Assembly (NCBI RefSeq): GCF_003569765.1
Contig: NZ_QXMG01000001.1
Coordinates: 186,001 to 250,000 of the forward strand
Length of the DNA stretch: 64,000 nucleotides
Direction of reading: 5' to 3'
From: Caldimonas tepidiphila
GTDB taxonomy: Bacteria; Pseudomonadota; Gammaproteobacteria; Burkholderiales; Burkholderiaceae_C
Of this stretch, positions 19,126 through 30,280 are shown one piece after another. Below the pieces are notes generated by a model, which did no database searches, had not been told where the DNA came from, and was given only the letters and a program-made list of their open reading frames with translations. A program made the position numbers and the translations under genes. Numbering within the stretch: the stretch's first letter is position 1; each line of letters begins with the position of its first letter.

Positions 19126-20421
19126 TCACGGCCGCCCCTCGCCCTGGCGGTGCCGCAGCACGTCGAGCGGCGACAGCGGCGCGGCCTCGTTGCCCCAGGA
19201 CTGGCGCAGGTAGGTGAGCAGCGCGGCGAGCTGCACGTCGTCGAACACCGGCGCGAAGGGCGGCATGCCGTAGGGGCGCGGGTTGCCGGCGGTGGCGGGC
19301 GGAAAGCCGCCGGCGAGCACGGCGCGCAGCAGGTTGGCGGGCGGGTCCATCGTCACCGCGCGGTTGCCGGCCAGCGCCGGATACGCACCCGGCGCGCCCT
19401 GCCCCGCCTCGCCGTGGCAGCCGGCGCAGTGCTGCCCGTAGAGCCGTGCGCCGAGCGCGAGCTGCTCCGCGTCGGCGCGCTGCACCGGCGCCCGCGGCGC
19501 GGCGGGGGCCTGCGGCAGCTCCTTCAGGAACACCGCGATCGCGCGCAGGTCGGCCTCGTCCAGGTACTGCGTGCTGCGGAACACCACCTCGGCCATCGGC
19601 CCGAGCGCCGAGCCCTGCGGCGCGACGCCGGTCTTCAGCAGCGCGACCACGTCGCGCAGTTCCCAATGCGCGACGCCCGCCTCGCGCGGCGAGTTCAGCG
19701 CCGGCGCGTACCAGTTCTGCATCGGGATCAGCCCGCCGCCGAACTCGAGCGACTCGCGCGTCGCGCCGAAGGCGTTGCGCGGCCCGTGGCAGGCGTTGCA
19801 GTGGCCGAGGCCGCGCACCAGGTAGGCGCCCCGGTTCCACTCGGCGCTGCGCTGCGGGTCGGGCTCGAAGCGGCCGGGGCGGAAGAACAGCAGCCGCCAG
19901 CCGGCCAGCGCCCACTGCGTGCTGAACGGGAAGCGCAGCTCGTGCGGGCGGTTGGGCTGGCGCACCGGCGGCAGGCTGCGCAGGTAGGCGTGGATCGCGT
20001 CGGCGTCCTCGCGCGTCACCTGCGTGTAGTTCGGGTACGGGAAGGCCGGATAGAGCAGCCGCCCGTCGGCGGAGCGGCCGAAATGCATCGCGCGCCAGAA
20101 GTCGTCGGCGCTCCAGCGCCCGAGCCCGGTCTCGTCGTCGGGCGTCAGGTTGGACGCGTAGACGGTGCCGAAGGGCGTCTCGATGGCGAGCCCGCCGGCC
20201 CACGGCGCGCCGCCGCGCGCGGTGTGGCAGGCCATGCAGTTGCCGGCGCGCGCGAGGTACTCGCCGCGGCGCAGCAACTCGCTGCCGCGCTCCTGGCGCT
20301 GCGGATAGGGCGCGTTGCTGCCGGGCACGTCGTCCTCGCCCGACAGGTCGAGCGCGAACACCGCGACGAGCGCGAGCACGATCAGCACCAGCAGCGCGAG
20401 CAGCAGCCGCTTCGGGTTCAT
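19126..20421 (-). CDS. Membrane-anchored triheme cytochrome c
   Basis: The 431-residue protein has an N-terminal hydrophobic anchor (about residues 5-25, LLLALLVLIVLALVAVFAL) and three c-type haem sites: CMACH near 62, CNACH near 207 and CAGCH near 330. Three-haem architecture with FGTVYASNLTPDDETGLG resembles the cytochrome subunits of gluconate and alcohol dehydrogenases, which pass electrons from a periplasmic dehydrogenase to quinone or oxidase. No flavin or PQQ dehydrogenase subunit is adjacent, so its donor is unknown. Its ATG overlaps the TGA of the diheme cytochrome gene (ATGA) and GGAGG precedes it, suggesting translational coupling. Confidence 0.9.
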   Translation of the reverse strand: MNPKRLLLALLVLIVLALVAVFALDLSGEDDVPGSNAPYPQRQERGSELLRRGEYLARAGNCMACHTARGGAPWAGGLAIETPFGTVYASNLTPDDETGLGRWSADDFWRAMHFGRSADGRLLYPAFPYPNYTQVTREDADAIHAYLRSLPPVRQPNRPHELRFPFSTQWALAGWRLLFFRPGRFEPDPQRSAEWNRGAYLVRGLGHCNACHGPRNAFGATRESLEFGGGLIPMQNWYAPALNSPREAGVAHWELRDVVALLKTGVAPQGSALGPMAEVVFRSTQYLDEADLRAIAVFLKELPQAPAAPRAPVQRADAEQLALGARLYGQHCAGCHGEAGQGAPGAYPALAGNRAVTMDPPANLLRAVLAGGFPPATAGNPRPYGMPPFAPVFDDVQLAALLTYLRQSWGNEAAPLSPLDVLRHRQGEGRP

Positions 20422-21164
20422 CGCGCCGCCTCCGCCACGCCGCCGCAGCGCAGCGGCATCGGTGCCTGCAGCGCCGCCGCCGGCTTCGCGTCGGCCGGCA
20501 GCGGCTGCGAGGACAGCCAGGTGGAGATCGCGCCGATGTCCTGCGGGGACAGCTGTCGCGCGACCTGCGCCATGCAGTCGGGCGCATGCGCGCGGCGCTG
20601 GCCGGTCTGCCAGGCGCCGAGTTGGCCGTTGAGATAGTCGCGCGGCAGCCCCAGCAGCCCGGGGATGGCCGGCTGCACGCCGGTCAGCGCCGCGCCGTGG
20701 CACTGCGCGCAGGCCGGGATGCGGCGCGACGCGTCGCCCTGCCGCACCAGCGCCTCGCCGCGCGCCAGCAGCGCCGCCGGCGCGTCGCGGGTCTGCGGCG
20801 GCGGATAGGGCAGGTCCAGCGCGGCGAAATGCCGCGCCATCTCCATCAGGTAGTCGTCGCTCAGGTGCTGCACCAGGTAGCTCATCAGTCCGTGGTGGCG
20901 CCGCCCGTCGCGGAAGTTCACCAGCTGGTTGAACAGGTAGTCCGCGGGCTTGCCCGCGATGCGCGGGAAGTAGCCCTGGTTGCTCGCGCGCCCCTCCTTG
21001 CCGTGGCAGGCGGTGCAGGCGAGCACGCGCTGCGCGATCGTGTCGGGAACGGCGACCGGCGCAGGGAGCTGGGCCTGCACGGAGCCGGCCAGCGCCAGCA
21101 GCAGGGCCGGGGCCCGGCCGCGGAACCGGGGGCGCCGGCGGGAAGACGGTGCAGCAGCGTTCAT
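20418..21164 (-). CDS. Periplasmic diheme cytochrome c (c4-like)
   Basis: The 248-residue precursor has a signal peptide (basic residues then APALLLALAGSVQA) and two haem-binding motifs, CTACHGKEGRASNQGYFPRI and CAQCHG, in tandem cytochrome domains. The first domain includes LFNQLVNFRDGRRHHGLMS, typical of cytochrome c4-type proteins that shuttle electrons to terminal oxidases. The start at 21164 was chosen because it places the signal peptide correctly; its ribosome-binding site is weak. It is the first gene of a two-gene operon with the triheme cytochrome. Confidence 0.88.
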   Translation of the reverse strand: MNAAAPSSRRRPRFRGRAPALLLALAGSVQAQLPAPVAVPDTIAQRVLACTACHGKEGRASNQGYFPRIAGKPADYLFNQLVNFRDGRRHHGLMSYLVQHLSDDYLMEMARHFAALDLPYPPPQTRDAPAALLARGEALVRQGDASRRIPACAQCHGAALTGVQPAIPGLLGLPRDYLNGQLGAWQTGQRRAHAPDCMAQVARQLSPQDIGAISTWLSSQPLPADAKPAAALQAPMPLRCGGVAEAAR

Positions 21165-21288
21165 CACGGACGATTGTCGGCGCAGTCCAGCGGGCCTGCC
21201 GTGCCGGCGCCTCCGCGTGGCAGCAAGCGGCATGCCCCGTGACCCGCGAATGCGCGTTCCGGGACAGAGCAGCGTCGCAGCAACACTT

Positions 21289-21317
21289 TTGTCACATTTC
21301 GACACCTCGCGCATACC
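21289..21317 (+). promoter_or_regulatory. Candidate promoter for the 149-residue hypothetical gene
   Basis: TTGTCA at 21289-21294 and CATACC at 21312-21317 are separated by 17 bases in the divergent region before the gene at 21437. The -10 match is poor. A short exact inverted repeat (GTTAC, one base, GTAAC) at 21356-21366 lies downstream and could be a regulator site. Confidence 0.3.
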
Positions 21318-21436
21318 CCGGTGGACGCCCCGCATGGGCAAAGCCGGTCCGCCGTGTTACCGTAACAATATGTTATGAGGTTGCCGGGCCGGATCGCCGC
21401 GCACCGGACCGCCCCTTTCAGGACGTTTGCAGCACC

Positions 21437-23574: not shown

Positions 23575-24804
23575 ATGCCCGCTCCCGCCCTGCCCTGCCT
23601 CGGCACCCCGCTGTCCCCCACCGCCACCCGCGTGATGCTGCTCGGCTCGGGCGAGCTCGGCAAGGAGGTGCTGATCGCGCTGCAGCGCCTGGGCGTCGAG
23701 ACGATCGCGGTGGACCGCTACGAGAACGCGCCCGGCCAGCAGGTGGCGCACCACGCGCGCACCATCGCGATGAGCGACCCCGAGGCGCTGCGCGCGCTGA
23801 TCGAGGCCGAGCGGCCGCAGCTCGTCGTGCCCGAGATCGAGGCGATCGCCACGCCCATGCTCGAGCAGCTCGAGGCGCAGGGCGTGGTGCGCGTGATCCC
23901 GACCGCGCGCGCCGCGCGGCTGACGATGGACCGCGAGGGCATCCGCCGGCTCGCGGCCGAGACGCTGCAGCTGCCGACCAGCCCCTACCGCTTCTGCGAC
24001 TCGCTGGAAGAACTGCAGGCGGCGATCGACGGCACGGACGGCCCCGCGATCGGCTATCCGTGCATCGTGAAGCCCGTGATGAGCAGCTCGGGCAAGGGCC
24101 AGAGCCGGATCGACGGCCCGGCCGACGTGCGCAAGGCCTGGGACTACGCGATGGCGGGCGGGCGCGTCAGCCACGGCCGCGTGATCGTCGAGGGCTTCAT
24201 CGACTTCGACTACGAGATCACGCTGCTGACGGTGCGCGCGCGCGGCGCCGACGGCAGCGTGGAGACCCGGTTCTGCGCGCCGATCGGCCACGTGCAGGTC
24301 GCGGGCGACTACGTCGAGAGCTGGCAGCCGCACCCGATGCACCCGGCGGCGCTCGAGAAGGCGCAGCAGATCGCCAGGGCCGTCACCGACGACCTCGGCG
24401 GCCAGGGCCTGTTCGGCGTCGAGCTGTTCGTCAAGGGCGAGCAGGTCTGGTTCAGCGAGGTCAGCCCCCGCCCGCACGACACCGGCATGGTGACGATGGC
24501 CACGCAGTGGCAGAACGAGTTCGAGCTGCACGCGCGCGCGATCCTCGGGCTGCCGGTGGACACCTCGCTGCGCAGCCCCGGCGCGAGCGCCGTGATCTAC
24601 GGCGGCGTCGAGGCCGCCGGCATCGTCTTCGACGGCGTCGACGAGGCGCTGCGCGTGCCGCAGACCGAGCTGCGCCTGTTCGGCAAGCCCGAGAGCTTCG
24701 CCCGGCGCCGCATGGGCGTCGCGCTCGCGCACGACGCCGACGTCGAGCAGGCGCGGCGGCTCGCGAAGGAGGCCGCCGCGAAGGTGAAGCCGCGCGCGGC
24801 CTGA
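23575..24804 (+). CDS. purT: Formate-dependent phosphoribosylglycinamide formyltransferase PurT
   Basis: The 409-residue ATP-grasp enzyme uses formate and ATP to formylate GAR in purine synthesis, independently of folate. Diagnostic stretches are [20 protein letters not shown] at the start of the pre-ATP-grasp domain, [17 protein letters not shown], the ATP-grasp loop [12 protein letters not shown] near residue 165, and [17 protein letters not shown] near 300. Length and motifs match PurT rather than the PurK paralogue. AAGGAG sits about nine bases before the ATG. It is a single gene between the divergent HDOD gene and the fusion gene 170 bp downstream. Confidence 0.96.
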
Positions 24805-24974
24805 CCCTCGCCCCGCGCTTCGGGGGACACCCGGGCCCGGACCCGTGCGCCGGCCGGCATCCCCCGCCGCGTCCAGCCCCTTGCGGTACAAGCACGGCAC
24901 GAGCGGCCGCGAGCCGGCCGGCAGTCCCGCCGCGGCCGGCGGATCGTTGCGCCGCGCCAAGGGAGAACCGATCC

Positions 24975-26501
24975 GTGTCGAGCCGCGCGAGGGTGCTGCT
25001 GGTGCTCGGGCATCCGCGCCCGGGCAGCTTCTGCGAGGCGCTGGCCGCCGCCTACTGCGACGGCGCGATGGATGCCGGCGCGCAGGTGCGCGTGCTGCGG
25101 CTGGCGCAGGCCGAGTTCGATCCGGACGTGCACGCAGCCTCGCCCGAGCAGCAGCCGCTGGAGCCGGTGCTCGCGCAGGCGCAGCAGGACATCGTGTGGG
25201 CGCAGCATCTCGTGTTCGTCCACCCGGTGTGGTGGGGCAGCTTCCCGGCGCGCCTCAAGGGCTTCCTCGACCGCTGCCTGACGCCGGGCTTCGCCTTCGC
25301 GCACCGCGAGGACGGTGCCTGGGAGAAGCTGCTGGCGGGCCGCACCGCCGAGCTGATCACGACGCTGGACACGCCGCGCGGCATCTACCGCCTCGTGCAG
25401 CTCGCGCCGGGCCACCGGGCGCTGGCGGTCGCGACGCTCGGCTACTGCGGCGTGCGCACGGTGCGCCAGACCGAGTTCGGCCCGGTCGTCACCTCGGCTC
25501 CCGAGGAGCGGCGGGAGTGGCTGCGCCAGGCGCATGCGCTCGGGCTGCGCTTGCGCGACGGCGTGCTGAGCCCGGGGCAGCGGGCGTGGCAGCCGGTGGC
25601 CGCCTGGCTGCGCGCGCTGCGCCTGCAGTTCCACCCGATGGCCTGGCTGGCCTACACGATGGCGGCGCTGGCGGCGGCGGGCGGCCGCCCGCTCGACCTC
25701 GCCGCCTGGGCGCTGGGCCTGCTCGCGCTCTTCCTGCTCGAGGCCGCCACCGTCTTCTGCAACGACTGGTTCGACCGCGGCAGCGACGCGATCAACCGCA
25801 ACGCCGGCCCCTTCACCGGCGGCTCGCGGGTGCTGGTGGACGGCAGCATCGCGCCCGGGTCGATGGGCGCGGGCATCGCGCTCGCGCTGGCCGGCTTCGT
25901 CTTCGTGCTGGCGCTGCTGGTCGAGGTCTCGGCCGCGCCTGCCGCGCCGCTGCTGGCGTCCTTCGCGGTGCTGGCGGTGCTGGCGCTCGGCTACACGGTG
26001 CCGCCGCTCAAGCTCAGCCACCGGGGCCTGGGCGAGCTCGCCGTGGCGCTCACGCACAGCGCCGGCGTGATGCTGCCCGGCTGGCTGCTGCAGGGGGGCG
26101 ATGCGGCCTCGCCGCTGCCCTGGCTGCTCGGCGTGCCGCTCGCCGTCGCGGTGTTCCCGGCCATCGTGCTGTCGGGCGTGCCGGACCACGATGCCGACCG
26201 CGCCGCGGCCAAGCGCACGCTGGTGGTGAAGCTCGGCATCCCGGCGAGCCTCGCGCTCGCCGCCGCCTCGGCGCTGCTCGCCGCGGCACTCGGGCTCGCC
26301 TGGTGGGCCTTCGGCGTGGCCGGCGGCGCCTACAGCGCGCTCATCGTGCCCGCGGCGGCGCACGCGCTGTGGCTCGCCGCGGGCCTGCGGGCGCTGCGGC
26401 AGCGCCGCTCGCCGCCCGGGCGCATCGACGCGCTGATGGCGCGTGCGCTCGGCTTCACGGCCTGGTTCGCGATCGTGCCGCTGGCCTCGCTGCTGGGCTG
26501 A
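24975..26501 (+). CDS. Flavodoxin-fold NAD(P)H:quinone oxidoreductase fused to UbiA prenyltransferase
   Basis: This 508-residue protein joins two enzymes. Residues 1-205 are a flavodoxin_2 domain (VLLVLGHPRPGSFCEAL, HPVWWGSFPARLKGFLDR), the FMN/FAD-dependent quinone reductase fold of MdaB and KefF. Residues 215-508 form about eight membrane segments of a UbiA-type prenyltransferase with both Asp motifs: NDWFDRGSD starting at residue 263 and DHDAD starting at 404. UbiA enzymes attach a polyprenyl chain to aromatic acids. There is no stop codon or frameshift between the halves. The GTG start follows AGGGAGA by eight bases. Fusion implies that prenylation and quinone reduction are linked; this is inference. 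It need not be the ubiquinone UbiA, since no chorismate lyase gene is directly adjacent. Confidence 0.88.
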   Translation: MSSRARVLLVLGHPRPGSFCEALAAAYCDGAMDAGAQVRVLRLAQAEFDPDVHAASPEQQPLEPVLAQAQQDIVWAQHLVFVHPVWWGSFPARLKGFLDRCLTPGFAFAHREDGAWEKLLAGRTAELITTLDTPRGIYRLVQLAPGHRALAVATLGYCGVRTVRQTEFGPVVTSAPEERREWLRQAHALGLRLRDGVLSPGQRAWQPVAAWLRALRLQFHPMAWLAYTMAALAAAGGRPLDLAAWALGLLALFLLEAATVFCNDWFDRGSDAINRNAGPFTGGSRVLVDGSIAPGSMGAGIALALAGFVFVLALLVEVSAAPAAPLLASFAVLAVLALGYTVPPLKLSHRGLGELAVALTHSAGVMLPGWLLQGGDAASPLPWLLGVPLAVAVFPAIVLSGVPDHDADRAAAKRTLVVKLGIPASLALAAASALLAAALGLAWWAFGVAGGAYSALIVPAAAHALWLAAGLRALRQRRSPPGRIDALMARALGFTAWFAIVPLASLLG

Positions 26502-29686: not shown

Positions 29687-30280
29687 TCAGTCCCGTCGTG
29701 CCGGACGCCTGCGGACCGGGGGCCGCGTCGGCGGCGCCCCGGCATCGGGGTCGAGCCGGCCCAGCGCCGGCAGGAAGCATTCGGTCAGCAAGAGCGGCGC
29801 GCCGCGGCGCCGGAACACCGAGCGCCGGGCCCAGGCGCGGCGCACGTCCCCGCGCAGCCGCTCGGGCCAGGCGCGGCGCAGCCGGCGCAGGCAGGGCATG
29901 CCGCGGTGCAGCCGCGCGAACTCCAGCGGCGCGCGGGGCACCGGCCGGCGGCCGAACAGCAGCTCGGCCAGCGGCCGCTCGCCCAGGCCGCGCACCGCGC
30001 GCCAGACGCCGCGCGCGTGGCGCGCGCACAGCACGCTGCGCGCGGCGACGAGCAGCTGATCGTCGCGCCACAGCTGCACCTCGCGCACGTGCGCGCGGAA
30101 GCGCCGCCGCAGCCCGAGCGCGACGAGCTCGTCCGCGGTCGGCCAGGACGTGCCCTCGAAGCTGCGCCGCACCTCCAGCCGCTCGGCGCCCGCGCGCAGC
30201 CGCGCGGTGAGCGAGCCCTCGCCGCGCAGCCAGTCGCGCAGCGGACGCGGGAGTGCGGGACGGGACGACCAGGGCTTCAC
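29687..30280 (-). CDS. ubiC: Chorismate--pyruvate lyase (UbiC family)
   Basis: The 197-residue Arg-rich protein resembles UbiC, which converts chorismate to 4-hydroxybenzoate and pyruvate at the start of ubiquinone synthesis. Supporting stretches are AHVREVQLWRDDQLLVAARS, RGLGERPLAELLFG (including the LGxxPLG-like loop) and RRSVFRRRGAPLLLTECFLP near the C-terminus, whose Glu is a family-conserved active-site residue. The start is a GTG with a weak ribosome-binding site. UbiA is usually its neighbour; here the only UbiA-like gene in the window is the fusion 3 kb away on the other strand. Confidence 0.85.
   Translation of the reverse strand: MKPWSSRPALPRPLRDWLRGEGSLTARLRAGAERLEVRRSFEGTSWPTADELVALGLRRRFRAHVREVQLWRDDQLLVAARSVLCARHARGVWRAVRGLGERPLAELLFGRRPVPRAPLEFARLHRGMPCLRRLRRAWPERLRGDVRRAWARRSVFRRRGAPLLLTECFLPALGRLDPDAGAPPTRPPVRRRPARRD

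Follow-up and report, generated by a model that had tools for sequence, protein, structure and literature searches.

The fusion gene lies on the plus strand at 24975..26501 of the window, by which we mean the whole 64,000-nucleotide stretch of DNA that was analysed. It forms one open frame of 508 codons plus stop with a GTG start, and its translation of 508 residues runs open up to that stop. A ribosome-binding-like sequence, AAGGGAG (24959..24965, +), was read from the sequence 9 bases 5' of the GTG start. The N-terminal half matched Flavodoxin_2, the NQO-type quinone reductase domain, over residues 6-185 (24990..25529, +; PF02525, 7.5e-33) with 114.4 bits against a Pfam gathering score of 27, and the C-terminal half matched the UbiA prenyltransferase domain over residues 226-479 (25650..26411, +; PF01040, 2e-22) with 80.1 bits against 34.2. 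The original prediction had placed the flavodoxin domain at residues 1-205, an extent that was slightly too wide for a domain that is indeed there. Neither a stop nor a frame change was detected between the two halves in the window sequence. Third-position GC of the gene was 0.97 (0.94 to 0.98 for four other genes of the window), and its overall GC was 0.76 versus 0.72 for the window. The one-frame fusion that had been claimed is also found outside the window, as 27 fusion proteins, our own included, align end to end. Since other genomes carry the same end-to-end fusion, chance and sequencing error are disfavoured, and the sequencing error or missed stop between the halves that had been sought as a refutation is ruled out by the full-length homologues. 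The Flavodoxin_2-UbiA fusion is true and not an artefact.

Conservation was followed in the 27-row alignment (three further full-length matches, G1356, G1399 and G1403, were left out) at 29 hand-picked positions, mostly taken from columns invariant in a 12-row alignment, A4; 26 of the 29 were identical in every row. The 13 invariant positions of the reductase half are H13, P14, R15 and S18, the residues P84, W86, W87, P91, K95 and D99 of a PxWWxxxPAxLKxxxD segment (residues 84-99; 25224..25271, +), and T130, D132 and P134 of a T-x-D-x-P...Y segment (residues 130-138; 25362..25388, +) that aligns with the TTGG...Y of NQO2. Position 138, which closes the latter segment, is Y in 24 rows, H in two and Q in one, and Y138 aligns with a tyrosine of NQO2 that we take to be residue 155. 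The linker and lead-in to the first membrane helix (residues 197-225; 25563..25649, +) carries W211, R216, Q218, F219, P221 and M222 in 12/12 rows of A4. Both Asp-rich motifs of the UbiA superfamily, NDxxDxxxD and DxxxD, were found as predicted: NDWFDRGSD at residues 263-271 (25761..25787, +), with N263, D267 and D271 invariant, and DHDAD at 404-408, with D404, D408 and the nearby K413 invariant (residues 404-413; 26184..26213, +). Also invariant in this half are G282 and G283 and, within the YTVPPLKLSHRGLGE loop (residues 340-354; 25992..26036, +), Y340, P344, R350, G353 and E354. Position 264 is D in seven rows, the window among them, and E in 20; position 285 is R in 19 and Q in eight. Huang et al. 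describe mutation of motif residues of E. coli MenA, with loss on mutating a conserved tyrosine, and by our own reading of the alignment Y340 is probably this same tyrosine. The earlier impression that both halves look active agrees with the conserved residues kept in each of them.

The full-length predicted model had a mean pLDDT of 86.0 and a pTM of 0.75. In structure alignment its top match was UBIAD1 (8djk_B; Z 24.6, rmsd 2.8, 269 aligned residues, in residues 204-508), with AfUbiA at Z 22.4 and DGGGP synthase at Z 22.2. When modelled alone (pLDDT 92.7), the UbiA half gave Z scores of 20.3-24.5 against UBIAD1 and archaeal UbiA structures, UBIAD1 being highest at 24.5 over 267 residues and the next at 22.8; UBIAD1 leads the remaining UbiA structures by about 2 Z units. 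The N-terminal half aligned with Smu.1420 (Z 23.4), NQO2 (Z 22.9) and NQO1 (Z 22.8), and a Foldseek search with the model returned flavodoxin-type structures throughout among the 50 matches listed. The predicted model thus has both the UbiA membrane fold and the NQO2/Smu.1420 fold. The model has nine helices, and both Asp motifs are located where helices 2 and 6 end; provided that every helix crosses the membrane, the motifs would lie on the same side as the N-terminal domain.

A scan of genome contigs gave eight relatives, consisting of seven full-length fusions and one interrupted copy. The full-length fusions belong to three alphaproteobacterial MAGs (one of them Reyranella), a Burkholderiaceae MAG, Salinisphaera halophila, Pseudosulfitobacter koreensis and the haloarchaeon Natronolimnohabitans innermongolicus. 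The Salinisphaera orenii copy (L013:952-2459) has a frame change within the reductase half, and that of S. halophila (L011) is open throughout. A further copy is located on a Roseinatronobacter plasmid, where the public record annotates only an NAD(P)H-dependent oxidoreductase; this name hides the prenyltransferase half and is a warning about annotation. In samples that overlap in part, full-length fusions were found in 1/9 genomes of our genus, 3/300 of our order and 2/398 of our phylum (own genome included in each), and, with the centre genome included, in 15/243 of the order of the haloarchaeon, 2/385 of the class of Reyranella and 4/85 of the order of Salinisphaera, the last with one partial copy in addition. 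Except in the genus sample, a part of the candidates of a genome was scored where these were many (3 to 18). No fusion was found in the eight other congeners sampled. Few genomes of the proteobacterial samples carry the fusion; in the haloarchaeal order it is less rare. Searches of the open-access literature, by titles and abstract starts, gave no paper describing it. The architecture, joining two well-known families, is real and rare.

Each half was then placed in a tree with its other relatives. The 12 fusions fell on one side of a branch both in the UbiA-half tree of 44 rows (100/99) and in the flavodoxin-half tree with 36 stand-alone relatives (98/94), the latter leaving out L005, L030, L032 and L060 (short or with a stop), L042 (same region as L015) and the interrupted L013. 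Since the fusions group as one clade in either tree, a single fusion event is likely. In a tree of the 27 full-length proteins, built without an outgroup so that the direction of spread is not readable from it, the 15 haloarchaeal rows were on one side of a branch (100/100). This tree, together with the lack of a match in the eight congeners, suggests horizontal spread, also across domains; loss in many lineages may be an alternative. Stand-alone relatives of the flavodoxin half exist, with up to about 50% identity. A split version of the reductase and UbiA pair was rejected for these stand-alone loci, as no match to the UbiA half of the window was detected in the fetched flanks, about 1.5 kb either side in most. 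One such relative, on a Pseudomonas aeruginosa plasmid (L144:6807-7430), overlaps the end of a class II fumarase gene on the same strand.

The neighbours of the fusion in the window include PurT, a GNAT acetyltransferase, AMP nucleosidase, 3-hydroxyacyl-CoA dehydrogenase and UbiC, and as a set they suggest no pathway. The purT-like gene (23575..24804, +; PurT_C and ATP-grasp) is upstream, and ubiC, encoding chorismate lyase (PF04345, Chor_lyase), is at 29687..30280 on the minus strand, 3.2 kb from the fusion. The position of ubiC, about 3 kb away on the other strand, was correct in the original prediction; its use as a hint carries little weight, because distant hosts have no neighbour in a constant position beside the fusion. 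This was judged from clustering of the neighbours of 25 of the 26 loci (window row left out), with flanks of about 6 kb in most and clusters of at least three loci: no neighbour in a fixed place was detected beyond close relatives, neighbours being not all annotated and a single-host cluster being of a kind that could be missed. Nor did any neighbour among the 25 loci compared point to a source of quinone. Among haloarchaea, synteny was observed, with a cupin gene directly upstream in six loci (the Cupin_2 gene L007:5482-5844 and its relatives in the same place in five others) and, as identified by eye, a carbonic anhydrase and a cold-shock-like protein. Synteny was also found among three alphaproteobacteria, and members of broad families such as ABC ATPases and SDR oxidoreductases recur near fusions at varying places.

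Several single loci may be recorded here. The Roseinatronobacter plasmid copy (L033:1-31236) has surroundings that resemble a stress island, the genes around it carrying the annotations catalase, superoxide dismutase, ferritin-like, PRC-barrel, sigma factor and cytochrome P450, and a CsbD gene is near the copy in genome G190; with two loci, this stress context is anecdotal. In G190, a GTP cyclohydrolase I gene (L062:3861-4502) ends 61 bases before the fusion on the same strand, and an operon is possible. Within the window, minus-strand frames at 19126-21341 contain several CxxCH motifs by eye and are multi-heme cytochrome c-like, and the AMP nucleosidase gene is two genes from the fusion. In genomes of the same family, one stand-alone MenA-like UbiA gene (L099:7214-9837) stands directly before an AMP nucleosidase-like gene and another (L097:5435-9517) beside squalene synthase- and amine oxidase-type hopanoid-like genes, all as judged by eye.

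The relation of the fusion to the UbiA-type enzymes of ubiquinone, heme O and menaquinone synthesis was next examined. Our genome gave three matches to PF01040, the fusion being one. Its heme O synthase CyoE scored 308.5 bits with TIGR01473 and its 4-hydroxybenzoate octaprenyltransferase UbiA (L002) scored 318.5 bits with TIGR01474, both over cut-off; in the tree, this CyoE pairs with that of a Burkholderiaceae MAG (87/64), and this UbiA is in an open fork shared with the same MAG and G126. Neither half of the fusion passed any NCBIfam cut-off, and the fusion was not among the TIGR01474 matches at E 0.1 (cut-off 275.45). A role as the ubiquinone or heme O enzyme is rejected in view of the separate over-cut-off UbiA and CyoE, and the fusion is, as judged from these profile matches, additional to the ubiquinone enzyme. 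The doubt originally raised, that this might not be the ubiquinone enzyme, was well placed: the search for a separate UbiA elsewhere in the genome was successful, and the opposite outcome, a genome with no other UbiA and a fusion common in ubiquinone loci, was not observed.

The UbiA half belonged instead to a group of 21 rows (99/98) that also includes MenA of E. coli and of haloarchaea as well as stand-alone MenA-like proteins, and in the same tree, which has no UBIAD1 among its rows, the fusions were beside and not inside an eight-row clade of MenA and MenA-like proteins of modest support (85/76). With the menA equivalogs, the best score of the fusion was 43.5 bits versus 346 (PRK06080.1-2), and TIGR00751 was not among the matches at E 0.1. 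The first motif of MenA has the spacing DxxDxxxxxD according to one source (PMC9235831); that of the fusion reads DxxDxxxD and so differs from the MenA spacing. MenD was over cut-off in 4/14 fusion genomes, all four from the haloarchaeal order, and in 0/10 bacterial hosts, all 10 of which have sub-cut-off matches, with only 7/14 controls passing. PF02621, for the futalosine route, was over cut-off in 0/14 fusion genomes, with weak matches in two and with 4/14 controls passing. As this survey of menaquinone markers includes several drafts or MAGs, absence is not proof. Since MenD is present in the four haloarchaeal hosts tested and a true MenA in the one of them examined, the fusion enzyme would not be needed for menaquinone there. 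The bacterial hosts, as far as these markers tell, seem to be without a source of the MenA substrate.

From these observations we propose, at about an even chance of being right, that the fusion combines an NQO-type reductase with a UBIAD1/MenA-like prenyltransferase, and that it reduces a quinone and then prenylates the hydroquinone. With flavin and NAD(P)H, the N-terminal flavodoxin domain on the cytoplasmic side would convert an unprenylated quinone into its hydroquinone, and the UbiA domain would prenylate this electron-rich hydroquinone at the same membrane face, yielding a membrane-bound prenylquinol. Prenyl transfer to a ring in the UbiA superfamily needs an electron-rich acceptor, and the fused reductase would supply, on the spot, the acceptor reduction that a UBIAD1-type enzyme needs. 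We infer the use of flavin and NAD(P)H, the order of steps, their coupling and their sidedness. As neither menaquinone marker reached its cut-off in the tested bacterial hosts, the acceptor is more likely a salvaged naphtho- or benzoquinone than 1,4-dihydroxy-2-naphthoate. The original suggestion that a prenylated compound is reduced as it is made was sound with respect to the fusion itself, and its order of events has been changed: reduction before prenylation is better supported, because the UbiA half falls in the MenA/UBIAD1 branch and UBIAD1 is reported to need a reduced acceptor (PMC4398444).

The reverse order, in which prenylation of the ring comes first and the flavodoxin half, in an antioxidant role, maintains the prenylated product or the ubiquinone of the cell in the quinol state, appears unlikely. 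It would agree with the NQO-type fold predicted for the flavodoxin half and with the two copies near stress-type genes, on the Roseinatronobacter plasmid and in G190; however, two loci make up that stress context, no neighbour is fixed in distant hosts, and a long-chain prenylquinone would be located in the core of the membrane, at a distance from the soluble flavodoxin domain. The patchy distribution of the fusion would agree with an enzyme of special metabolism, meroterpenoid-like, whose UbiA half would prenylate some ring, phenolic or other, and whose reductase would have a different intermediate as its substrate. There are UbiA-type enzymes that serve purposes other than quinone synthesis, such as Ubi-297, which farnesylates 8-HQA (PMC9235831), but the 25 loci compared, with flanks of about 6 kb in most, share no gene set beyond close relatives, and we regard a function of this kind as quite improbable.

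There is also a small chance that the fusion merely serves to anchor a general quinone or flavin reductase at the membrane, with no chemical coupling between its two activities. The stand-alone flavodoxin relatives indicate that the reductase works alone elsewhere, but tethering does not require the residues of the UbiA Asp motifs, and these are kept in 27/27 proteins. An unusual enzyme of ubiquinone or menaquinone biosynthesis, for which the nearby ubiC and the MenA-like branch of the UbiA half might speak, is hardly to be expected: besides the separate UbiA and CyoE of our genome, a UbiA-clade protein is present in 9/9 bacterial fusion genomes examined, and neither MenD nor PF02621 was over cut-off in any of the 10 bacterial hosts.

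Reduction followed by prenylation therefore stays the reading that we prefer. In its widest form, which we put forward tentatively and consider rather doubtful as a whole, the fusion would be a one-chain counterpart of a reductase plus UBIAD1, in which a quinone not made de novo is reduced with NAD(P)H and prenylated to an undescribed lipid quinol in ubiquinone-making bacteria and in haloarchaea, the gene having arisen once and moved between bacteria and archaea. The fusion may then reveal a route of quinone salvage in organisms without menaquinone genes.

Among known systems, Smu.1420 is closest in sequence to the reductase half (2e-31), followed by human NQO2 (6e-19) and human NQO1 (4e-14); the depositors' names for Smu.1420 are putative oxidoreductase and NADPH quinone oxidoreductase. 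The solved structures of these three are of proteins that have 188 to 294 residues and no prenyltransferase part. The TTGG of NQO1 and NQO2 is replaced by T-x-D-x-P in 27/27 fusions, the corresponding segment of Smu.1420 being TTHNTP, and because the TTGG segment is absent the fusion is filed as Flavodoxin_2 only and not as an NQO1/NQO2 orthologue. On the prenyltransferase side, the 4-hydroxybenzoate octaprenyltransferase UbiA shares the superfamily and both Asp motifs with the fusion but belongs to a different part of the tree. The 1,4-dihydroxy-2-naphthoate prenyltransferase MenA of E. coli is 21% identical to the UbiA half and shares with it the DxxxD motif and the GLGD/E loop, which reads GLGD in E. 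coli and haloarchaeal MenA. UBIAD1, the menaquinone-4 synthase and best structural match of the UbiA half at an identity of 13-14%, has to our knowledge no fused reductase domain. UBIAD1 was inactive without DTT, which its authors assume to reduce menadione, and they call this reduction required (Hirota et al. 2015, PMC4398444). Since NQO1 is considered unlikely to contribute significantly to the vitamin K cycle (PMC11119062), the parallel with a reductase-UBIAD1 pair would be a chemical one and not a known pairing. In UBIAD1 and related enzymes the acceptor has to be reduced by another agent; the fusion carries a reductase on the same chain, and a bacterial fusion gene could show whether reduction and prenylation couple on one protein.
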